A stretch of DNA of 64,000 nucleotides from an uncultured Elusimicrobia bacterium (GTDB taxonomy: Bacteria > Elusimicrobiota > Elusimicrobia > Elusimicrobiales > Elusimicrobiaceae): positions 1 through 64,000 of the forward strand of contig CAMECJ010000004.1 of the NCBI GenBank assembly GCA_945913025.1, read 5' to 3'. The first letter of the stretch is position 1. Each line of letters begins with the position of its first letter. A program made the translations under genes and the position numbers. Below, in pieces: positions 25 through 13,013 of this stretch. The notes below the pieces were generated by a model. The model made no database searches and was not told the DNA's origin. It worked only from the letters and a program-made list of their open reading frames with translations.

Positions 25-959
25 CTATCGGCTTCCGGGTGTAGGGAAAGCGGTGTTTAGGTATTGCGTAAGCTGTTTGTGCAATGTTTGTGCCAGTTCC
101 TTGGGACTGATGACCTTGATGTGGGGTAGCCACCGTTTGAGTTGAGGAAGGACCTGTATGAAATTAGCTGTTTTGCACGAAATAAGCAAAGAACCGTCTT
201 TTAGTTCTTTCTCAATTTTTTGGTAGGGGAAAAATTCCACCTCTTTAAAATATCCGGCAATGGGCGGGGCAATTTTTAGTTTAATTTCTACATTTTGCTC
301 ACTATCAAACCAAATATTGGGCGACTGCGCCAATTTGTCATCAATAGAAATAGGGGCAAAGGTTTGAGTATGTGGGCGCACTTGTTCAATACGCCCAAGT
401 GAAAATTTCATGAAGGTATTCCAACTATTAAGGGTAATTAAGTACCAAAATCCGTCAAATAAGGCTATTTTTAAGGGGCGTACCTGGCGGATCCACGCCC
501 GTTTGGTTTGGGATTTATAATAAACATCTATATACTGATGTTTCAAAATAGATTGTTCCAATTTTTCCAACATAGCGGGCGAAATGCTGTGCCACATACG
601 CGGCATTTTAATAAAGTAGATATCTAGGGATTAGGGCGCACAAATTGCTCGGTCAGCCGTTTAAAACTGGCGTTCCAGTTGGGACCCAAAGATTCGGCCA
701 ATTGCCCCCGGTAAGGGCAAGGAGTGCTTTATCCCGCGCGGAAAGCGGCATTTTGCGCAACGAAAACCCTTCCGCAAAACCGTATCTACCAGCGGCGATT
801 TCTGCTAACGGGAAACCGGCACGTTCTATTTCGTGCAAATCGCGCTGCAAAGTGCGTGCAGAAAAGCCGAGCTCTTTAGCCTCTTGCGTAAGCACAATAC
901 AACTTGTTAAGTAGATACAAAATACGGGTAAATTTATGCAAAGTTGCGGGTTTAATCAT
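25..959 (-). pseudogene. WYL-domain transcriptional regulator, frameshifted
   Basis: The longest intact piece (25-606, 193 aa) is a WYL domain, with a core reading RQVRPLKIALFDGFWYLI followed by FSLGRIEQVRP, the usual ligand-sensing C-terminal part of DeoR/HTH-WYL regulators. Upstream on the same strand a second piece (about 650-895) encodes a helix-turn-helix (FSARTLQRDLHEIE) and a third begins at an ATG at 959 (MIKPATLHKFTRILYLL). The three pieces lie in different frames, and a TAG stop near 632 separates the linker from the WYL part, so a normal regulator of about 300 residues has been broken by at least two or three frameshifts. The gene diverges from the EcsC-family gene at 1101, which may once have been its target. 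The family assignment is good; loss of function is inferred. Confidence 0.75.
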
Positions 960-3454: not shown

Positions 3455-5461
3455 ATGAGCGATTACATACAATTAACCGCACGGGAATTAGGCCTAAAAT
3501 GGCTGGAGTTAATAGGCCGTCCTATGCCGCCAATCGGGCGTAGTTTAATTATTAAAAACCTGTTATGGTATGGACAAGCCAAGCGTGAGAAACTTTCTCC
3601 GCTTGGCTTTTTTCATGAAGTAGCCCAAGCAGCTAAGGGAGCAGACAAGCGTCCCAAAGCCACTCTTGAGATAGGCTCAAAACTAATCCGTTCCTACCAA
3701 GGGCTTAAATACGAAGTAGAAATCGTTGCCAATGGGTATCTATATGAGAATACACTCTACAAAAGCCTATCCGGTGTAGCCAAAGCCATTATGGGGAAAA
3801 ACTGGAACGGAAATGTATTCTTTGGAGTGAAAAAAATGAGTGATAAAAAAATACGTTGTGCTATCTATACCCGCAAATCAACGGAAGAAGGATTAGAACA
3901 GGAGTTTAATAGTTTACAAGCTCAACGGGAAGCGTGTGAGGCCTATATTAAGAACCAAAAGCATGAGAATTGGCAGTTATTGCCTACGGAATATGATGAC
4001 GGTGGGTATTCAGGCGGCAACATGGAAAGGCCGGCTTTAAAAAGGCTACTCCAAGATGTGCACAACGGACTTGTTGATATTATCGTTGTTTACAAGATAG
4101 ACCGCTTAACCCGCAGTCTAATGGATTTTAGCAAGATTGTAGAAGTGTTAGATAAGCATAATGCCTCGTTTGTATCTATTACCCAGCATTTTAATACCAC
4201 TACCAGTATGGGGCGGCTAACGATCAATATGTTATTATCCTTTGCCTAATTTGAGCGCGAAGTAACAGGGGAGCGTATAAGGGATAAGATAAGTGCCAGT
4301 AAAAAGAAAGGTATGTGGATGGGTGGCAAACCGCCATTGGGATATTACCGTAAAGATAAAAAAATATATCCGGATGAGGAAAAAGTAAAACTCGTTACTA
4401 CTATATTCCAAAAGTATGTTGAACTGAAAAGTACCACACTCCTAAAAGAGTGGTTAAATAAACAGGGACATAATATATCCGTAGGGAACTTGAATTGTAT
4501 CCTACGTAATAAAGCATATATTGGTTTAGTAGGGCATAAAGGAACATGGTATCCGGGGGAACACCAAGGCATAATTTCCCAAGAGTTGTTTGAGCAAGTC
4601 CAAGCAGTAATGGCAGATAATCGTATCAACCTCCAACATTATGCCCCTAGCAAAAGCCTTTTGTCGGGCAAGTTATATGACGATAAAGATAACGCCATGA
4701 ACCCCAGTTGGAGTACGGGTAGCGGCGGTAAAAAATATCGCTATTATGTCAGCCAAGCCATTATCCGCAAAGAGCCAAGCAAACTAGGTACAATCGGCAA
4801 AGTATCTCTACCGCAACTGGAAAACTTTATAGATAGTTGGTTTAAGCACTTCTTACGCGAAAAGCCAAAAATACACCCATATATCCAACAGTTTGGCGTG
4901 AGCAAACAAAAAGAAATTATCAAACGGTTGACAGAATATCCGATGACACGAGATATAGAGAAAGCTTTAATCAAATGCATTAAATTAAATCCCAACAGGA
5001 TAGAAATTACACTACATACGGAACAAGTAACCGAACTGCTCAACGCTATTTATGAAAATAGAGAAATGGCTATTCTTCAATCTGAGAAACTAAAACTTGA
5101 AACCACTTATACGGAAACATATCGTATAGGAACGGTAGCCAATGGGGCCAAGGTTATTGTGGGGCAATTTGTCCAACCTACAAAACAACCCAACAAGGAA
5201 CTCATCACAATCTTACACCAATCCTATAGTTGGCATCAAGATATATTAGACGGTAAGACTACCCAAGAAATAGCCAATAGAGAGAAAGTATGCGTGCAGT
5301 ATGTGCGCCGGATCCTTAATTTGAGTTTTTTATTGCCCAAAATCGTACGCTCTATCCTAAACGGCACGCAACCTGTCGATTGTACGCTCAAGAAGTTGAT
5401 TTGGATTGACGCCCTTGATTGGCCAAAACAAAATAAGCTATTTTTTGATAAATTTTTTTAG
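3455..5461 (+). pseudogene. DUF2924-large serine recombinase, broken by a nonsense codon (copy 1)
   Basis: Residues 1-128 match the DUF2924 domain found beside resolvases in mobile elements. The rest is a large serine recombinase: catalytic serine in YTRKSTEEG, then DDGGYSGGNMERP and VVYKIDRLTR, followed by the long recombinase and C-terminal DNA-binding parts to 5461. An in-frame TAA at 4247-4249 stands where the second copy of this module (30714-32331) has CAA, in LLSFA-Q-FERE, so the protein is truncated inside the catalytic domain. DUF2924 and recombinase are fused here because a run before ATGAGTGAT has seven A; the second copy has six A and two overlapping ORFs. The start has an AGGAGAG site. 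Probably an inactive integrase unless suppressed. Confidence 0.85.
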
Positions 5462-5622: not shown

Positions 5623-5874
5623 TGGTATTGGTACCCAAAGTGGGACAGTAAATAAGAGACTATGCCTGATGATTAGTTAACCATTTTGATACACATCTAT
5701 GCCATATTCGCTGCTGATTTCTCTCACCGATTTGCCTTGCTCTCTTAGCTCCAATATCTGCCGCTTAAACTCTTTTGTGTACTGCTTTCGTTTCATAACC
5801 ATTATTCCGCTTCTCCTATACAACCTATTATACTTTTACCCCTATTCACTGTCCCACTTTGTGTACCAATACCA
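5623..5874 (-). mobile_element. 252-bp non-autonomous IS3-family derivative (copy 1)
   Basis: The ends are imperfect inverted repeats beginning TGGTATTGGTAC and ending with its complement, followed inside by GGGACAGTAAATAAG at one end. The interior, read on the minus strand, holds only the first codons of an IS3 OrfA (ATGGTTATGAAACGAAAG) joined to the last codons of OrfB. A copy of exactly the same length and junction lies in opposite orientation at 12762-13013, and a longer relative at 16056-17081. The shared junction shows that one deleted form was copied, as in a MITE. No clear target duplication is visible here. Confidence 0.8.
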
Positions 5875-6082
5875 CAACGACAACATGTAGTCGCTTTCGT
5901 ATATATAAGTATCAGGGAGGGATAATATACCAAAGGAAATTAGTGAAATGGAGGCGGTTTGGACATTGTTTGCAAGATTGAGGTATTGACAAATATCGAC
6001 GGAATTGCTACATTATTATAGTAAGATGAGACGGCAGAAATAGGTCGTTTTATCAAAAAATTAGTGTTATTTTGAGGAAGAT

Positions 6083-6345
6083 TTATAGTGCAGACGACTG
6101 CACAGTTATAAGGTTCCCCAAATCCTAACAAAAGACAGAGATTGTATCTTGATAGATACCGACGTAAGAATAGGATAGGGGGACTTCCGAAAATAACGGA
6201 AATTCCATTAAGAGTGTACGAGGGACGAGCCCGTTGACTACACAGCAACCTACCAAAGGGCAAGGTGCTAAAGCTCGAACACAATGGGAGCTAGAACAAA
6301 TTTGAAGTATGTTAGAACCCATTGGAGACAATGGGTTCTTTTTTT
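6083..6345 (+). ncRNA. Candidate structured leader RNA
   Basis: The gene-free 5875-6385 stretch contains a dense series of perfect local helices: GTGCAG/CTGCAC (6088-6093 with 6098-6103, tetraloop ACGA), TCCCC plus ATCCTA pairing with TAGGAT plus GGGGA (6115-6127 with 6171-6183) enclosing GTATCT/AGATAC (6144-6159), TTCCG/CGGAA (6185-6201), GTGTA/TACAC (6214-6218 with 6239-6243) around GGG/CCC, AGCA-CCT with AGG-TGCT (6244-6251 with 6263-6269), and AGCTC/GAGCT (6272-6292). They end in a factor-independent terminator at 6314-6345. I do not recognise the class; it does not show the conserved parts of RNase P, tmRNA or 6S RNA. It could be a riboswitch-like leader, a stand-alone RNA or a mobile-element RNA. 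Inference from helices only. Confidence 0.5.
6314..6345 (+). terminator. Factor-independent terminator in leader
   Basis: AGAACCCATTG (6314-6324) and CAATGGGTTCT (6329-6339) form an 11-bp perfect stem with a GAGA tetraloop, followed by a run of seven T (6339-6345). It lies 41 nt before the first micro-ORF of the downstream operon. Confidence 0.8.
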
Positions 6346-6385
6346 ATCCACCTCTCCAATGGGAAATCCAAAGGAGAGGTTTTTT
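6318..6385 (+). promoter_or_regulatory. Switchable hairpins: antiterminator and Shine-Dalgarno sequester
   Basis: CCCATTGGAGA (6318-6328), half of the terminator, is perfectly complementary over 11 bp to TCTCCAATGGG (6353-6363), so an antiterminator can replace the terminator. That second strand overlaps ACCTCTCC (6350-6357), which pairs over 8 bp with GGAGAGGT (6373-6380), the ribosome site of the ORF at 6386. Forming the antiterminator therefore frees the ribosome site, while terminator formation allows sequestration. This coupling of transcription and translation control is seen in riboswitches and attenuators; the ligand or trigger is unknown. Confidence 0.6.
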
Positions 6386-6511
6386 ATGGCAAAAAAATGT
6401 AAGCAAAATCGCAATGTAACAGTATGGGTGGTTCCTTATACGCAGTTAGAGACAGAACCGATGAAGGAAGATTCTTTTGGATATAACGATTGGGACATTT
6501 ATCACGGATAG
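6386..6511 (+). CDS. 41-residue peptide, operon leader ORF
   Basis: The short ORF starts at an ATG 6-7 nt after an AAAGGAGAGG ribosome site and encodes a 41-residue peptide with a basic N-terminus (MAKKCKQNRN), a hydrophobic stretch (VTVWVVPY) and an acidic C-terminal half. I recognise no family. It may be a leader peptide, a small regulator, or the first product of the operon that continues to 12588. Its ribosome site lies inside a hairpin described separately. The strong site makes translation likely; function is unknown. Confidence 0.5.
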   Translation: MAKKCKQNRNVTVWVVPYTQLETEPMKEDSFGYNDWDIYHG

Positions 6512-6523
6512 GGACGAGATTTT

Positions 6524-6637
6524 ATGACGAAATTCTATATATGCGCAAAGAAACACAAGAAATATAGCGAATTCTATTTGCTACTGCGGGATATCTATCA
6601 GTGGCTTAGCAAGAATAGGACTTTTAGACATTTTTAG
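6524..6637 (+). CDS. Possible 37-residue basic peptide
   Basis: An ATG at 6524 follows a GGGACGAG stretch and opens a 37-residue frame beginning MTKFYICAKKHKKY that is basic and aromatic-rich and ends 12 nt before the ClpX-like gene. It fills the gap between the 41-residue ORF and the ATPase gene on the same strand. The ribosome site is poor and no family is recognised, so it may be spurious. Confidence 0.3.
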   Translation: MTKFYICAKKHKKYSEFYLLLRDIYQWLSKNRTFRHF

Positions 6638-6649
6638 AGTGAGGTAAAT

Positions 6650-8011
6650 ATGAACAATATAAAGAAACAAATAACAAAATACACTTCTCGTGCACAATTG
6701 GTAGAAGACATTATTAAATGGAACGATTTGGCAGGTCCTGCTACCAAAGAGGCCCAGTTCGTGCAAACGCTCAAGGAGATTCACGCACGACTTTTGCGCT
6801 CTAATGCAGATAAATTCCCATTAGTGGAGTTTATTCAAAAGCATAAATTATCACAGGCGGAAGTATTTTTACTGCTTCGCCTGTCGGTACTGGATTTGCA
6901 ACGGGTAATGGTTAGCAGTTTTTTTCAAGTGCCGTATTTGCTCGAAAAGGGCCAAATATTCGGTCAACGTGCGGAATTGGTGTCTATTTTGTTAGACCGC
7001 AAAAGTGTGTTATTTACGGAAGGGATTTTTACCTATTGCGGTGGCAAAATAGAACTTAAAAAGAATTTTTTAGCGGCTCCAGCAGTCAAAAAACGAAAAA
7101 CTAAGAAACGCACGCTAAATCCTCAGCGCGTGCTGAGCGAACTTAATAAGTATGTAATTGGGCAGGATGAAGCCAAGAAACAGGTTGTAGCAGGCGTTTT
7201 TGAGCATTTAATCAAGTGTGCTAATGCCAAAGACGGCCAAGTATTTAACAAGAGTAATATTTTTATCAGCGGACCAACGGGTTGCGGAAAGAGTTATATG
7301 TGCGAGTGTTTGGCTAAAATCTTGAAAATACCTTTCTTGCACGTAGATGCTACTAAATATACGCAAACGGGGTATCACGGCCAAAATGTAGGGGATATAT
7401 TAAAACCCTTATATGATTTTATTAAGGAGAAAAACAAACTGCCGGTTTCTATTGTGTTTATTGATGAAATAGATAAACTGCGGGAAGGATGCGAAAGATG
7501 GGGCGTATCTTCCACCAATGTGCAAGCAGAGTTACTGCGGCTCATAGAGGCATCTCACTATAACTTAGAAAAAAGAAGTTCTTTGGTGGATTGCGATATT
7601 TCCCAAGTCTTGTTTATCGTTGGCGGGGCGTTTGAAAACTTGCAAGTAAAACACGCTGATAAAACGGTCGGTTTTGCCTACACACCCGTTGTGCAAGAGC
7701 GTACCCTTACCGCAGATGATTATATCGGCTATGGGATGATGCCCGAACTAATTGGGCGATTTTCGTACTTTGTGCAGTTAAAGGGGCTTGAAAAAGACGA
7801 TTTACGCCAAATTCTACTCAACCCGCATAATGGACCTTTGCAACAATATAAAAACCTGTTGCATACCTCTACACGTGTGTCTTCTGAAGTGGTGGAAACG
7901 CTCGTCAATAGCGCGTATGAGCGGCACTTGGGGGCCCGCGGGCTTCATCAGCAAGTGGGGCAACTCTTTCAGGATGCATTTTTGGAAAACAAGGTCCAAA
8001 TTGAAATATAA
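6650..8011 (+). CDS. ClpX-like AAA+ ATPase with N-terminal helical/winged-helix domain
   Basis: The C-terminal 280 residues of this 453-residue protein match the ClpX/HslU branch of AAA+ unfoldases: entry segment LNKYVIGQDEAKK, Walker A GPTGCGKS (about 206), a HVDATKYTQTGYHG segment, Walker B IVFIDEIDK (about 268) and sensor 2 GARGL (about 427). The ClpX zinc-binding domain is absent. Instead residues 1-150 form a separate helical domain ending in a lysine-rich linker; part of it (VFLLLRL, then YLLEKGQIF) recurs in the next gene product. No IGF-type ClpP-docking loop is evident, so it may remodel proteins without a protease. The start has a GAGGT site. It opens a tightly spaced same-strand operon to 12588. 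Confidence 0.8.
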   Translation: MNNIKKQITKYTSRAQLVEDIIKWNDLAGPATKEAQFVQTLKEIHARLLRSNADKFPLVEFIQKHKLSQAEVFLLLRLSVLDLQRVMVSSFFQVPYLLEKGQIFGQRAELVSILLDRKSVLFTEGIFTYCGGKIELKKNFLAAPAVKKRKTKKRTLNPQRVLSELNKYVIGQDEAKKQVVAGVFEHLIKCANAKDGQVFNKSNIFISGPTGCGKSYMCECLAKILKIPFLHVDATKYTQTGYHGQNVGDILKPLYDFIKEKNKLPVSIVFIDEIDKLREGCERWGVSSTNVQAELLRLIEASHYNLEKRSSLVDCDISQVLFIVGGAFENLQVKHADKTVGFAYTPVVQERTLTADDYIGYGMMPELIGRFSYFVQLKGLEKDDLRQILLNPHNGPLQQYKNLLHTSTRVSSEVVETLVNSAYERHLGARGLHQQVGQLFQDAFLENKVQIEI

Positions 8012-8020
8012 GGAGTGTTT

Positions 8021-8539
8021 ATGAATATACACGTACAATTAGCACAGTTTTTAGAGGAGTTGGACCAGCAACGCAAGGCAATGTTAAGTCATTTGCCCGT
8101 GGAAGGATATAAGACCACGGAAGAGTTATTTAAGGCCTGTTCTTTGTGGGTGGGGTTAGAGCGTGGCCCGTGGGCTGAAAACGGCTACAAAGAGTACTTT
8201 TTGAACATTGTAGCCAATTTAAAACACGAAAACAGCAGCCATCTGGCCTTATCGGTGTTTCTCAAAAATAACTCTTGTAGTGATGTGCAACTGTTTCTAC
8301 TACTTCGGTTACTTACTAAAACGGCTACCGATGCCTGCGCGTGGGATAACCGTATGGAAACGTATTTGGATAGAGGGCAAGCCATTTTTACGCAGGAAGA
8401 ACTGGACACGCTATTTAAAGAGGCGCAAGAAACGTACCCAATCGGAAATATCTGCCAATACAATAAGCGCAGTATTTATCTCAATCGGCAGTTGGTACAC
8501 GTCAAACAATTTTTAGGGGTACTCCCTAAATCGAACTAA
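8021..8539 (+). CDS. Partner protein sharing the ATPase N-terminal domain
   Basis: This 172-residue soluble protein starts at an ATG placed 5 nt after AAGGAG; a GTG at 8015 overlaps that site and is unlikely. Residues about 85-165 resemble the N-terminal domain of the preceding ClpX-like ATPase: VQLFLLLRLL against VFLLLRLSVLD, YLDRGQAIFTQEELDTLF against YLLEKGQIFGQRAELVSIL, and a closing IYLNRQLV against IELKKNFL. It appears to be a stand-alone version of that domain, perhaps an adaptor or a subunit that binds the same partner. It follows the ATPase by 9 nt. No known family name can be given. Confidence 0.6.
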   Translation: MNIHVQLAQFLEELDQQRKAMLSHLPVEGYKTTEELFKACSLWVGLERGPWAENGYKEYFLNIVANLKHENSSHLALSVFLKNNSCSDVQLFLLLRLLTKTATDACAWDNRMETYLDRGQAIFTQEELDTLFKEAQETYPIGNICQYNKRSIYLNRQLVHVKQFLGVLPKSN

Positions 8540-8553
8540 AAAGGAGGTTGTAA

Positions 8554-8883
8554 ATGAAAAAAGCAGTATTGTTAGTTGTTCCGTTATTATTAACTGCGTG
8601 TGCGGCTAATATTAACCATAATGTAGCAACGGTACAGGGTAAAACCTACTTGGTAGAGACGAAAAATAATAATTTCTTCCGGCTCTTCCAATGGAGTAAA
8701 CCCAGTACATTTAAGCTCATAGATGGCGAAAAGCTAGACCAGGAAGCCCTCCAAGCGTACATTGATAGTGTCTCCAAGGAGTGTAAAAAAACAGCGCGGA
8801 TTCGTTCGTTTAATACGTCCGCTCCCGCTGAATATGATTCCGAGAAATTCTATGACTGTATGATGGATAAACTCAAAAAATAA
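8554..8883 (+). CDS. Small lipoprotein
   Basis: The 109-residue product has a classic lipoprotein signal: MKK, a hydrophobic run, and the lipobox LLTAC with the lipidated cysteine at residue 16. The mature part is hydrophilic, with two further cysteines (SKEC and FYDC) that could form a disulfide in the periplasm. An AGGAGG site precedes the ATG, and the gene lies 14 nt after the previous one. No family is recognised. In this operon it places at least one component at the inner or outer membrane. Confidence 0.7.
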   Translation: MKKAVLLVVPLLLTACAANINHNVATVQGKTYLVETKNNNFFRLFQWSKPSTFKLIDGEKLDQEALQAYIDSVSKECKKTARIRSFNTSAPAEYDSEKFYDCMMDKLKK

Positions 8884-8890
8884 GCAATAG

Positions 8891-8911
8891 GGGCCTAGTG
8901 CACCTAGGCCC
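8891..8911. other. Intercistronic 8-bp hairpin
   Basis: GGGCCTAG and CTAGGCCC pair perfectly around a 5-nt loop between the lipoprotein and LemA-like genes. There is no T-run, so it is more likely an mRNA-processing or stabilising hairpin than a terminator. Confidence 0.4.
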
Positions 8912-8939
8912 TGTACTTGCAAACGAAAGGAGAATGAAA

Positions 8940-9437
8940 ATGACAGTAACAATGGTAGTTGTTTTATTAGTCGCAGTAGTAGCACTTGGGTATTTCATTT
9001 CCGTGAACAATACGGAAATCCGCCTTCGCAATTTGGTCAAAGCGCAACAAGAAATATGTGAAGCCAACTTTGACAAGATGTGGAAGGTCATTAAGCAAAT
9101 CACGCACGTATCCGATACGTACTTAGAGGCGTTTAAGGAGATATACCCCAAACTTATTTCCGGACGTTACCAAAGCAAGGATATGCGGTTTATTGTAGAG
9201 CATAACCCGCCGTTAGACACGTCTGTTCTGCGTCAACTGGCCACGGCTATTGAAATCAACCGTGAACAGTTTTTCAGTCATCAACGGTTATTAGTGGCAC
9301 GACATAACGAACACAAAACCTTTATCCAAAGTTTCCCCGCGTGTATTTTGTTGCCTAACGCACAGGAAATCAAAATTACGGTCATTAAGTCGGACCATAC
9401 AGCCGACGTATATGCCACCGGCAAGGAGAACATTTAA
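8940..9437 (+). CDS. LemA-like membrane-anchored protein
   Basis: The 165-residue protein has one N-terminal membrane helix (VTMVVVLLVAVVALGYFISV) followed by a long alpha-helical domain of LemA type: the segment NNTEIRLRNLVKAQQE then FDKMWKVIKQI matches the first LemA helix, where the family has NxLVxxxxxxxxxxDxxxxRR-like spacing. LemA proteins expose a helical bundle outside or beside the cytoplasmic membrane and have no assigned enzymatic activity. I chose the second of two ATGs because it sits 6 nt after AGGAG. The stop codon overlaps the next start (TAATG), indicating translational coupling to the TPR membrane protein. Confidence 0.65.
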   Translation: MTVTMVVVLLVAVVALGYFISVNNTEIRLRNLVKAQQEICEANFDKMWKVIKQITHVSDTYLEAFKEIYPKLISGRYQSKDMRFIVEHNPPLDTSVLRQLATAIEINREQFFSHQRLLVARHNEHKTFIQSFPACILLPNAQEIKITVIKSDHTADVYATGKENI

Positions 9438-11020
9438 TGTCTATATCGTTCTTATATGCGCTTGGTTTTTTGCTAGTCGTGCCGCACGTAATAGGCTATG
9501 AACCCTTGGGTATATTCGGGATAATCATAGGTTGCCTAGGGGCGTGGATAGTTATTGGTTTTGCCAATGCGTGTGAATCGGGCAAAACGGAAGACGAAGA
9601 AATCTTGGGCACGTACGTGACCGAGGCCCGCTATTACGAACCGTGGACGGAAAAAATCAAACACGAAGACGAAGAAACGGGCGAAGTAACGTACGAAGAA
9701 GTAGAGCATGACGAACAATGGGAAATCACCGTAGCCGAAGGGGACACTTTTGACATTGATGAAGAAGAATATAAAGAACTTGTCTCCCTATTTGGCAACG
9801 AAGGAGAGGAAGAGGCCGACCACGAGTGGGAAGCGGAGGGAGAAATTATAGACCCCGGGTATAGCACGTATACCACGTGGCCCGGTACGTATGAAACCGC
9901 AAGTTACGAGTATGTATACCGTTCATACAAAAATCCCACCTTACGTTCTTCCAACATATATGCAAGCGAAAAATTGGACGAACAAACCATTAAAACGTAT
10001 CACTTGCAGTCCTATGGCCGCAAAGGATTATACGGTACGGTACAGGGAGAAGACGCGGAGCAATTAGAAGATGAAATTCGGGATTATAACTGTTGGAGTC
10101 GTGAAAAAAACATAAAACTAAATTTCATCTTACTGGAAAATGCCACCACTACGCAAGGAATCTATTGGCAGCAATATTGGCAAAACGGTAAGCGCAACAC
10201 GATAAATGCCGTTGTGGGCGTAACCCCTGAGCATAAAATTGAGTGGGCCCACGTATTTGGTTGGCAGAACGAAGCCGTGTGTATTAAACTGCGCGATTTT
10301 ATCGTGGGATTAGATACGCTCGCGGATATTACGTCTCATTTTAGCCAAGTGAAAGAAATCTTAAAAGAAAACTACCAACTGCCTAATTTGAGCGAATATG
10401 ATTTGGGGAAAGGGCCTTTTCCTCTCAAAGGGGCTCTAATTGCTCTAACGATATGCTTGGGGCTATTTTGCGGACTTTTTGGCAGGCCGCCCCAATACAA
10501 TATCCGTGCCCAGAAGAATGTAGCGCAAAGGCAATACTCACTAGCCAAAAGTAACTTTCAGGAATATCTTCACCGCGTGCCGGATGATGTATATGCGCTT
10601 AATAATTTAGGCGTGATTTACTGGAGAGAGAATAATTTGGAAGAGGCCGAAAAACTATTTTCGCAAGCATTGCGCAATTCGTATTCTCTAAGCAGAGGAG
10701 ATGTCAAAGACCTCTATGTAAATCGTGGCATTTGTTACAAGGATTTGAAACAAAACAAGAAGGCTATTGCCGATATGAAAAAAGCCATAGAATACGAGGA
10801 ATACGGCACTAAGTCTTATTGCGCTTTATACAACTTATACAACATGCTTGGTTATAAAAAATCAATGTGGGCTTTGCAGAAAGAGTATAACAACCGTAGG
10901 CCAGGTCGGCTTAAAGAGGATTGTAAAGATTATAGAGATTCTTTGACCTATATATACGATGGCGCAGATATGTTCACTGGGCGCGGTTTTGAGCGGATAT
11001 TGAGGAAGATTTTTGACTAG
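9437..11020 (+). CDS. Membrane protein with acidic loop and C-terminal TPR repeats
   Basis: The 527-residue protein begins with two hydrophobic helices (about residues 3-20 and 25-43). A very acidic region follows (about 50-150, rich in E and D, for example EDEETGEVTYEEVEHDE), then a mixed domain to about 330, another membrane helix (ALIALTICLGLFCGLFG, about 335-351) and a C-terminal TPR domain (about 365-480) with units such as DVYALNNLGVIYWRENNLEE and KDLYVNRGICYKDLKQN. It is coupled by TAATG overlap to the LemA-like gene, so the two are probably made together at the membrane. No catalytic motif is seen; a scaffold or sensor role is inferred. Confidence 0.65.
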   Translation: MSISFLYALGFLLVVPHVIGYEPLGIFGIIIGCLGAWIVIGFANACESGKTEDEEILGTYVTEARYYEPWTEKIKHEDEETGEVTYEEVEHDEQWEITVAEGDTFDIDEEEYKELVSLFGNEGEEEADHEWEAEGEIIDPGYSTYTTWPGTYETASYEYVYRSYKNPTLRSSNIYASEKLDEQTIKTYHLQSYGRKGLYGTVQGEDAEQLEDEIRDYNCWSREKNIKLNFILLENATTTQGIYWQQYWQNGKRNTINAVVGVTPEHKIEWAHVFGWQNEAVCIKLRDFIVGLDTLADITSHFSQVKEILKENYQLPNLSEYDLGKGPFPLKGALIALTICLGLFCGLFGRPPQYNIRAQKNVAQRQYSLAKSNFQEYLHRVPDDVYALNNLGVIYWRENNLEEAEKLFSQALRNSYSLSRGDVKDLYVNRGICYKDLKQNKKAIADMKKAIEYEEYGTKSYCALYNLYNMLGYKKSMWALQKEYNNRRPGRLKEDCKDYRDSLTYIYDGADMFTGRGFERILRKIFD

Positions 11021-11034
11021 AGGAGGAACGAACT

Positions 11035-11826
11035 ATGTATCAAGTAAAAGTATCTGTGGATGAACAAAGAAGTTATGTATCTTTTTATGAGGAAGATACT
11101 CTTCTCTACCGTACCGTAGTGCAGAGTCCCTATCATATTACGGAGCAGGACCCCGTTGTGCAGCGTAAAAAATTCAAGGAACACCGAACCTGTGTGCCGC
11201 CACAACATAAAGTGTGGGTTCCAGGTAAGATTAACGTGCATCCGTGGTTTAATAACTTATTTAAGCAAGTGGATAAACTAGTAAGTTATATGCCGTTTCG
11301 AGATAAAGAAATTGAGTATTCTATTCACACGCCTTTTAGTAACCACGTAACCGATAAACGCTACCAAGTCACGGAAGGATTTAAGACGGAAGATTTGAAG
11401 GACGGCCCCTATGCCTTGCCTACCCGTGCTATTAAAAGTATTTCTACGCAATTTGGCCCTTATCCGCTCGTTCCCACGCAAGAGGCTACGTGGAAAATTA
11501 ACGTGCGTACAGCCCAAACACGTAAAAATGTGATTTATTTGCGGGCCCACTATAGCCGTAAGCACGTATTATCTTTTGTGGCAGAATTATTAAAACGCAG
11601 GAATTGTGCCGTAAAATTACGCCCCAGTTTTACAATGGAAAAATACAAACTGGAAATTTGTTCTTCCGATTGGTTGTTTGGATTAGAAAGAGAAGAGTGG
11701 GCCTGTTTGGATATTTATTTACAAAACCCGCAAGCATTTCAAAAAACCTGGTATCAACGGTGGTTTGAGAAAAAAAGAAGCAAAGGCAGTTATGTGGATT
11801 CTATTTGGAGTTGTTTTAAAAAATGA
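11035..11826 (+). CDS. Protein of unknown function in the LemA/ClpX-like operon
   Basis: The 263-residue, basic, cytoplasmic-looking protein has no signal peptide or membrane segment. It contains several conserved-looking aromatic and basic segments (KVWVPGKINVHPWFNNLF, then RAHYSRKHVLSFVAELLKRR) but none that I can assign to a family. A strong GAGGAGG site precedes the ATG by 7 nt, the gene follows the TPR protein by 14 nt, and it precedes the amidohydrolase-like gene by 18 nt. Position alone ties it to the operon. Confidence 0.6.
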   Translation: MYQVKVSVDEQRSYVSFYEEDTLLYRTVVQSPYHITEQDPVVQRKKFKEHRTCVPPQHKVWVPGKINVHPWFNNLFKQVDKLVSYMPFRDKEIEYSIHTPFSNHVTDKRYQVTEGFKTEDLKDGPYALPTRAIKSISTQFGPYPLVPTQEATWKINVRTAQTRKNVIYLRAHYSRKHVLSFVAELLKRRNCAVKLRPSFTMEKYKLEICSSDWLFGLEREEWACLDIYLQNPQAFQKTWYQRWFEKKRSKGSYVDSIWSCFKK

Positions 11827-11844
11827 TTAGAAGAGCGAAAGAAA

Positions 11845-12588
11845 ATGAATCAATTTGAAAATATTGTGGCTTGGATGCCGCATACAGGGTTATATTTGCC
11901 TAATGTAGATAATAGGCCCGAATTTGATATTTTACGGCGAGATTCTTTGCTTTTGGCAGATGAACAGGTGGATAGATTGTATTCCTTTCTGCCAAACAAG
12001 ATTACAAGTGATTATTCCCGTTTTGTAGTGGATTTAGAGCGGTATTTAGACAATTCCAAAGCACCGATGGCACAAAAGGGAATGGGGTACTTGTATAACC
12101 GCTTAATAGATGGCAAGTCATTTGATAGAAGTATCTTCGGAGATGCTTCCTATTTTACCGAGTATTATAAACACAAACACGCCCAATTAAAGCAGGCAAT
12201 AGAACGCATTGGGAATGGGGCTATTTTGCTTGATTTACACAGTTTTAACCCCGTTCCCTTGCCGTGTGATATAGATAAAAGACCAAACCGTCCGGATATA
12301 TGCTTGGGCTTTAATGAGGATGAAACAAAACTAGAAGATTCTATCTTGCAAACCCTACAGGAACATTTTGAGGATAATGGCTTCAAAGTGGCCTTTAATA
12401 CGCCTTTTAGCGGAACAATGACCACTGACACACAAACCAAATACAAGTCCTTGATGATAGAGATTAACAAAAAATGTTACTTAGAAAATCACGTGCTTAA
12501 AAAAGATATGTATAAACTATCTTACGTACTAAAGGAAGCCGTTTTGTTACTACAGCCCCAACCTAAAAGAAAATTTAGCTGGTTATGA
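11845..12588 (+). CDS. N-formylglutamate amidohydrolase family protein
   Basis: The 247-residue protein matches the N-formylglutamate amidohydrolase (FGase) family: an early PHTG segment, DYSRFVVDLERY, GMGYLYNRLIDG, the metal-site segment LLDLHSFNPVPLP, RPDICLGFN, FNTPFSGTM and a closing LMIEINKKCYL with conserved Glu. The characterised enzymes hydrolyse N-formylglutamate in histidine degradation and use a zinc ion. No histidine-utilisation genes are nearby, so here the fold probably acts on another amide, perhaps of a peptide or cell-wall fragment; that is inference. It is the last gene of the operon and is followed by about 170 bp with no recognisable feature, then the second 252-bp IS derivative. 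Confidence 0.75.
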   Translation: MNQFENIVAWMPHTGLYLPNVDNRPEFDILRRDSLLLADEQVDRLYSFLPNKITSDYSRFVVDLERYLDNSKAPMAQKGMGYLYNRLIDGKSFDRSIFGDASYFTEYYKHKHAQLKQAIERIGNGAILLDLHSFNPVPLPCDIDKRPNRPDICLGFNEDETKLEDSILQTLQEHFEDNGFKVAFNTPFSGTMTTDTQTKYKSLMIEINKKCYLENHVLKKDMYKLSYVLKEAVLLLQPQPKRKFSWL

Positions 12589-12761
12589 CTTCTAAACACC
12601 TATAACATGAAAAATGACATTATACACCTTGCGATGATAAAGTCGTTGAGCACTTATATGTAGTTAAGTCCAGCAACTTAACCATCTAACACAGCAAGCC
12701 ACTCATAGAAACAGGAACGGTTTTTAGTGGGCACATTCTCTTTTACTACTGTGACAAAAAA

Positions 12762-13013
12762 TGGATTTGGTACAAAATCTGGGACAGTAAATAAGGGTAA
12801 AAGTATAATAGGTTGTATAGGAGAAGCGGAACAATGGTTATGAAACGAAAGCAGTATACAAAAGAGTTTAAACGACAGATATTGGAGCTAAGAGAGCAAG
12901 GCAAATCCGTGAGTGAACGCATCAGCGAATATGGCATCGATGTTTACCAAAATAGTTAACGCATCATCAGGCATAGTCTCTTATTTACTGTCCCACTTTG
13001 TGTACCAATACCA
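12762..13013 (+). mobile_element. 252-bp non-autonomous IS3-family derivative (copy 2)
   Basis: It begins TGGATTTGGTACAAAATC and ends GTGTACCAATACCA, with GGGACAGTAAATAAG and its complement just inside each end. The interior has the start of an IS3 OrfA at 12834 and the tail of OrfB, joined at the same point as in the inverted copy at 5623-5874 and of identical total length. Together the two copies bracket the 6.9-kb operon region. No convincing target-site duplication is seen. Confidence 0.8.

Follow-up and report, generated by a model that had tools for sequence, protein, structure and literature searches.

The leader of a ClpX-like operon is, judged by its sequence, a SAM-I riboswitch that appears to be locked twice, by a transcription terminator and by a hidden ribosome-binding site, where a single lock is usual. 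We consider it highly probable that this SAM-I riboswitch controls the ClpX-like operon with OFF logic and that one aptamer works both locks. The analysis covered the window, i.e., the whole stretch of 64,000 nucleotides, and the features discussed below are listed in Table 1.

Table 1. Features of the SAM-I leader and the downstream genes, in window positions.
Feature	Position	Strand	Basis or remark
Putative sigma-70 promoter, TTGACA-17-TACATT, TG ahead of -10	5986..6014	+	10/12 consensus positions; consensus match only
5' structured domain	6064..6201	+	Covariance model R1
5' domain stems	Outer 6065-6072/6191-6198; inner 6076-6080/6184-6188; stem 6116-6125/6173-6181	+	
5' domain hairpin	~6082-6111	+	
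SAM-I (S-box) aptamer	6202..6290	+	RF00162 match; in 37 loci, core motifs kept and pseudoknot covarying
Aptamer P1	6203-6209/6283-6289	+	
Aptamer pseudoknot, P2 loop to J3/4	6226-6229 (CGAG) with 6274-6277 (CTCG)	+	
Antiterminator, 6282-6288 (CAATGGG, P1 3' strand) with 6318-6324 (CCCATTG, terminator 5' arm)	6282..6324	+	Pairing conservation and folding
Intrinsic terminator AGAACCCATTG-GAGA-CAATGGGTTCT, 11-bp stem, GAGA loop, seven T to 6345	6314-6339; with T run 6314..6345	+	
X2, terminator 5' arm and loop 6318-6328 (CCCATTGGAGA) with anti-SD arm 6353-6363 (TCTCCAATGGG), 11 bp	6318..6363	+	Exact complement
SD-sequester hairpin, ACCTCTCC 6350-6357 with GGAGAGGT 6373-6380	6350..6380	+	8 bp; in nearly all of 37 loci
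First ORF, 41 codons (MAKKCKQNRNVTVWVV...FGYNDWDIYHG)	6386..6511	+	
ClpX-like AAA+ ATPase, lineage-specific N-terminal domain replacing the ClpX zinc domain	6650..8011	+	
174-aa protein	8015..8539	+	Same BLAST cluster as ClpX-like proteins
Putative operon remainder: lipoprotein-like, membrane protein, TPR protein, 263-aa protein, N-formylglutamate amidohydrolase	8554..12588	+	

The aptamer was the sole regulatory match in an Rfam scan of the whole window. It scored 59.8 bits against RF00162 (E = 4.3e-13; gathering cut-off, 44.4 bits) over model positions 1-108 of 108, the window copy being short in comparison with the SAM-I of that family. The first-pass annotation had recognised no known class and had placed the sensor in the 5' structured part of the leader; the Rfam check that it proposed overturned the former, and the 5' part turned out to be a domain separate from the aptamer. 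The binding core of SAM-I comprises the motifs AGAG, GCAAC, and GGUGC, and the atoms that touch SAM are known from the crystal structure. Among the 37 related loci described below, the core motif AAGGUGCUAA was kept in all, GCAACC was found in 34 and GCAGCC in the remaining three, and AGAG was present in J1/2 of the window and most loci. The loci with GCAGCC belonged to G052 and G267 (two loci). The pseudoknot covaried among the 37 loci (CAAG/CUUG, CGAG/CUCG, and CAGG/CCUG), every form being fully complementary. We infer SAM as the ligand of 6202-6290. The source genome contained one more SAM-I element above the cut-off and a normal metK.

Besides the source genome, 5 of the 61 genomes searched encoded a close ClpX-like homologue (55-76% identity), and each of these six genomes of the genus, the source included, had a SAM-I aptamer a few hundred nucleotides upstream of the ClpX-like gene. 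A phylum-wide draw of 295 genomes yielded 49 SAM-I matches, 37 of which formed one lineage-specific group with a shared aptamer, antiterminator, and terminator; these loci come from draft genomes, and their ORFs were called mechanically. In nearly all of the 37, the sequester hairpin stood directly before the start codon. One locus (G127) had no anti-SD stretch, possibly through an assembly fault. The earlier description of a leader of riboswitch type, in which the arms of terminator, antiterminator, and SD sequester overlap, was thereby upheld, as it was kept ahead of similar operons. Distant relatives in the phylum use SAM-I canonically, ahead of sulfur and amino-acid genes: outside the lineage group, it preceded genes for a threonine synthase-like PALP enzyme, a homocysteine biosynthesis enzyme (HcyBio), and a cysteine synthase-like PALP.

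Two types of expression platform were distinguished among 36 of the 37 loci; G173 was left out because it nearly duplicates G233. The anti-SD arm of the 18 type I loci, among them the window, can pair with the terminator 5' arm and loop. The 18 type II loci have the aptamer at, or close to, the presumed start of transcription, and their target genes are mostly orphan genes.

For the first lock, 6314-6345 was the only terminator-like site detected within 5880-6700 (shuffled sequences averaged 0.4), with 11 pairs and the seven T described in the first pass. The P1 3' strand can pair with the terminator 5' arm, as in the classical S-box layout of a standard SAM OFF-switch, and the predicted folds with and without P1 were opposite. 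Across the 18 type I loci, 97% of antiterminator cells were paired. In prefix folding, which used nearest-neighbour energies and left out tertiary contacts, pausing, and proteins, the antiterminator formed in the nascent RNA (0.83-1.0) unless P1 was held; without P1 it dominated until the terminator 3' arm emerged, except in G052, and with P1 held the terminator formed. In type I and type II alike, the folding of the growing RNA supports the prediction that SAM switches transcription off, and the terminator lock in the window is well supported at this level of modelling. The antiterminator first proposed was an 11-bp pairing of the terminator 5' arm with 6353-6363, which is real but gives an incomplete picture, the main antiterminator at 6282-6288/6318-6324 having been overlooked.

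The second hairpin (6350-6380), an 8-bp SD sequester previously noticed and recovered here with an energy of -17.1 kcal/mol, covers the ribosome-binding site in front of the 41-codon ORF. Its anti-SD arm can pair with another partner, either the aptamer 5' strand (X1) or the terminator 5' arm and loop (X2). The X2 complement of the window, exact as first reported, had an energy matched by none of 500 shuffled anti-SD regions. Over the 18 type I loci, X2 averaged -18.6 kcal/mol compared with -7.5 for shuffled sequences (16 loci at p <= 0.01), and 96% of its cells were paired (p = 0.0045, in a shuffle that ignores sequence relatedness). Its two most variable positions were U-A in 10 loci, U-G in 3, and C-G in 5, and G-C in 10, G-U in 7, and A-U in 1, with no mismatch. 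Since the shuffle test ignores the relatedness of the sequences, this covariation in type I is taken as support and not as proof. The comparison with relatives suggested in the first pass found the complementary arms kept, with covariation in the 18 type I loci, and in the window the second lock is supported as a conserved pairing. X1 was rejected as the second partner in type I, where its energies were slightly below shuffled, only 1 of 18 loci reached p <= 0.01, and mismatches occurred at the variable position. In type II, of which G052 and G018 are examples, X1 averaged -17.6 kcal/mol versus -8.3 shuffled (14/18 loci at p <= 0.01), the anti-SD complement was not confined to the SD region but took in the P1 strand, and both sides had changed at aptamer positions 9 and 14.

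The folding predictions for the second lock differed between loci. Ten type II loci were tested with the aptamer (P1) held, and in eight of them the predicted SD opening fell more than 1,000-fold; G015b and G028 did not show such a drop. The ribosome site of G073 and G147 was mostly closed even without aptamer P1, and the free RNA of G018, G052, G178a, G262, and G103 preferred the X1 helix. At most type I loci, including the window, the equilibrium favoured terminator plus sequester, with the ribosome site closed in either state, so that opening of the second lock would need a kinetic, co-transcriptional route. In growing-RNA folding, the X2 helix of type I was populated only transiently and was also predicted with P1 held.

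This type I folding, a good terminator/antiterminator switch without SAM-dependent SD opening, would suit a plain SAM-I transcription attenuator whose second hairpin merely shields the SD or serves as a second terminator. T residues lie between the sequester hairpin and the start codon, a T run that favours the latter, and 6350-6380 may indeed also be a second terminator. On that reading, the extra anti-SD complementarity would stem from repeated AAUGG(G) and AGAG motifs and involve no second switch; AGAG is common to SD and aptamer, and the anti-SD arm therefore pairs partly with both. However, all 18 type I loci pair at the two most variable positions of X2, even those in which the terminator 3' arm has kept G while the anti-SD arm carries A, and the type II complement extends beyond the SD region with its two-sided changes. 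A plain attenuator is possible, but we find it doubtful.

In the two-lock arrangement that we favour, bound SAM would let P1 (6203-6209/6283-6289) form, leaving the terminator 5' arm free, so that the terminator would fold and transcription would stop near 6345; should some RNA be read through, 6350-6380 would still shut its ribosome site. At low SAM, the terminator 5' arm would be taken by the P1 3' strand and the polymerase would read through, while the second partner could pull the anti-SD arm off the SD. This partner would be the aptamer 5' strand in type II, the terminator 5' arm being the better candidate in type I, including the window. Termination, translational control, and the opening route of the second lock in type I are parts of this scheme that we infer.

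All helices named in the first pass were present at the stated places, those upstream included, and a conserved domain (6064-6201) lies upstream of the aptamer. A covariance model (R1), built from the window and 11 other loci, scored 96.5 bits at the window domain and, when 90 genomes of the family were scanned, matched 13 loci, each immediately 5' of a SAM-I aptamer. Weak matches elsewhere (G023 and G033, E 0.06-0.08) lacked the conserved motif and were taken as chance. In the domain, 91.5% of cells were paired compared with 33-59% in slid controls, and four pairs had changed on both sides. A stem of most members contained the segment CCUAGGAAAA, which reads CCUAACAAAA in the window. The domain may serve as an insulator, as a protein-binding site, or as a second aptamer. 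A tandem sensor, in which 6064-6201 acts as a second aptamer or as a protein- or tRNA-binding element read jointly with SAM, would account for a structured domain that carries this segment in most members and occurs only directly 5' of type I aptamers, and it has a precedent in a Xanthomonas SAM-I leader that reads uncharged initiator tRNA as a second signal (PMC7270179). We nevertheless regard it as unlikely, given that the region had no Rfam match at the gathering cut-off or at E up to 5, that covariation in the domain was modest, and that the domain was absent in G097 and G099 and replaced by another hairpin in G025, G035, G255, and G290. Type I loci without the domain, which had other hairpins or little structure at the same place, indicate that the platform does not need it.

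The genes under the switch were unusual for this class. SAM-I is among the best-studied riboswitches, and its normal targets are methionine, cysteine, and SAM genes; the operon content (ClpX-like AAA+, TPR, N-formylglutamate amidohydrolase, and others) lies outside these, and no methionine gene was found downstream of the window switch. The recurring type I order, with gaps, was small ORF, ClpX-like protein, 170-aa protein, lipoprotein, membrane protein, and TPR protein. The small ORF was conserved in several relatives (FGYNDWD motif) and truncated or frameshifted in G016 and G020. For the ClpX-like protein, the match to NCBIfam ClpX (1e-61) was below the equivalog cut-off, and PDB ClpX matches spanned positions 159-442; the AAA+ module was kept, with no match to the ClpX N-terminal zinc domain. 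The first-pass label of a ClpX-like/LemA operon thus stood in its first half, while LemA had no match even at E = 10 and no Pfam support; the membrane protein of the operon is perhaps the one so labelled. As to a possible anti-phage system, PADLOC gave only weak AAA matches for the ClpX-like protein and nothing convincing for the rest of the operon. The 174-aa protein had a stand-alone copy under type II locus G018, and its AlphaFold model (pLDDT 44) was too low for use. A second, diverged ClpX-like protein (32% identity) was encoded in the same genome (L042, G000:C8:6454-7815), where no SAM-I element was found. N-formylglutamate amidohydrolase recurred in the window, G073, G083, and G267. Type II targets, e.g., L043 (G000:C1:335860-335976), were mostly proteins without a Pfam match; several small ones were alike by eye (L..G.I..E.F...KFP.E...K) and perhaps form one domain family.

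The putative promoter of the window was found at the same place in G015. A WYL-type regulator was encoded directly upstream in 13/18 type I loci and 0/18 type II loci; the one member tested matched HTH_11 (Pfam) and the PADLOC WYL model. Palindromes like GACATTTAAATGTC occurred beside the promoter at many of the WYL-regulator loci, and neither the upstream regulator nor such palindromes were found in the window and G015. At several type II loci (G000b, G015c, G035b, and G147), palindromes such as GACAACCTGTTGTC, possibly operators, lay over the presumed promoter about 36 nt before the aptamer, and the window had an imperfect palindrome, GACAACATGTAGTC, at 5879-5892. As for the other DNA surroundings, an IS-like remnant with inverted ends (GTGGGACAGT / ACTGTCCCAC) was noted at ~5636-5870; its short ORF is transposase-like, and an ORF at 12746-12937 (-) resembles it. 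A serine recombinase was encoded in two ORFs at 3455-5461 (DUF2924 and Resolvase in the first, Recombinase in the second) with an apparent break between 4249 and 4313, and neighbouring ORFs at 25-606 and 653-895 (-), with a WYL-domain fragment (PADLOC WYL) and an HTH-like fragment, are perhaps one broken WYL regulator.

The IS-like remnant just upstream, and the missing WYL-type gene directly upstream of the window and G015, unlike 13 of the 18 type I loci, could suggest a switch in the window that rearrangement has left stranded or in decay. Yet the aptamer core and all arms are intact, the operon ORFs are open, and G015 retains a near-identical leader and operon, which makes decay highly improbable. 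A broader proposal, which we rate as improbable in its full form, holds that SAM-I would be the sensor of a non-metabolic regulon, for example in a stress or anti-phage response, in which release of the ClpX-like operon via the two-lock platform takes both a WYL-type regulator and SAM depletion, with the 5' domain adding a second signal. Some phages destroy SAM. WYL regulators occur in defence systems (PMC9122588, PMC9122589), and this link may serve as a lead, not as a test.

The two-lock leader shares its aptamer, P1-coupled antiterminator, intrinsic terminator, and OFF logic with classical terminator SAM-I (RF00162). In contrast to the latter, it has an added SD-sequester hairpin with a second anti-SD partner and targets other than methionine or sulfur genes, and type I carries an added 5' domain. 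Riboswitches of "dual transcription and translation attenuation" were listed by Barrick and Breaker (2007; PMC2258182), and they likewise have one aptamer predicted to act on transcription and translation, whereas here two separate hairpins are present and type II would use both P1 strands, with the 3' strand serving the terminator and the 5' strand the SD lock. The c-di-GMP-I riboswitch Bc1 of Bacillus thuringiensis has a long platform with two consecutive hairpins and a transcription-translation dual regulation that was reported as incoherent (PMC11218506); the present leader shares the long platform and the two consecutive hairpins, and would share dual regulation, but differs in aptamer and ligand. 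In the Xanthomonas met operon, uncharged tRNA-fMet sequesters the anti-SD and frees the SD (PMC7270179). That leader also has a SAM-I aptamer controlling an anti-SD stem, but, unlike the window, it has no intrinsic terminator and controls methionine genes. Among open-licence papers, none was found joining "Elusimicrobi" and "SAM riboswitch", nor any description of one aptamer serving two separate hairpins via both P1 strands or of SAM-I tied to a ClpX-like operon, the last two absences being weak evidence.

The finding ties SAM-I to a ClpX-like unfoldase operon and to orphan genes across many genomes of the lineage, and the ClpX-like operon and the orphan targets make non-metabolic responses to low SAM testable. 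Further, the two groups of loci show how one aptamer can gain a second lock, and the partner of this lock can shift from the aptamer 5' strand to the terminator arm, which constitutes a natural experiment in the evolution of expression platforms.
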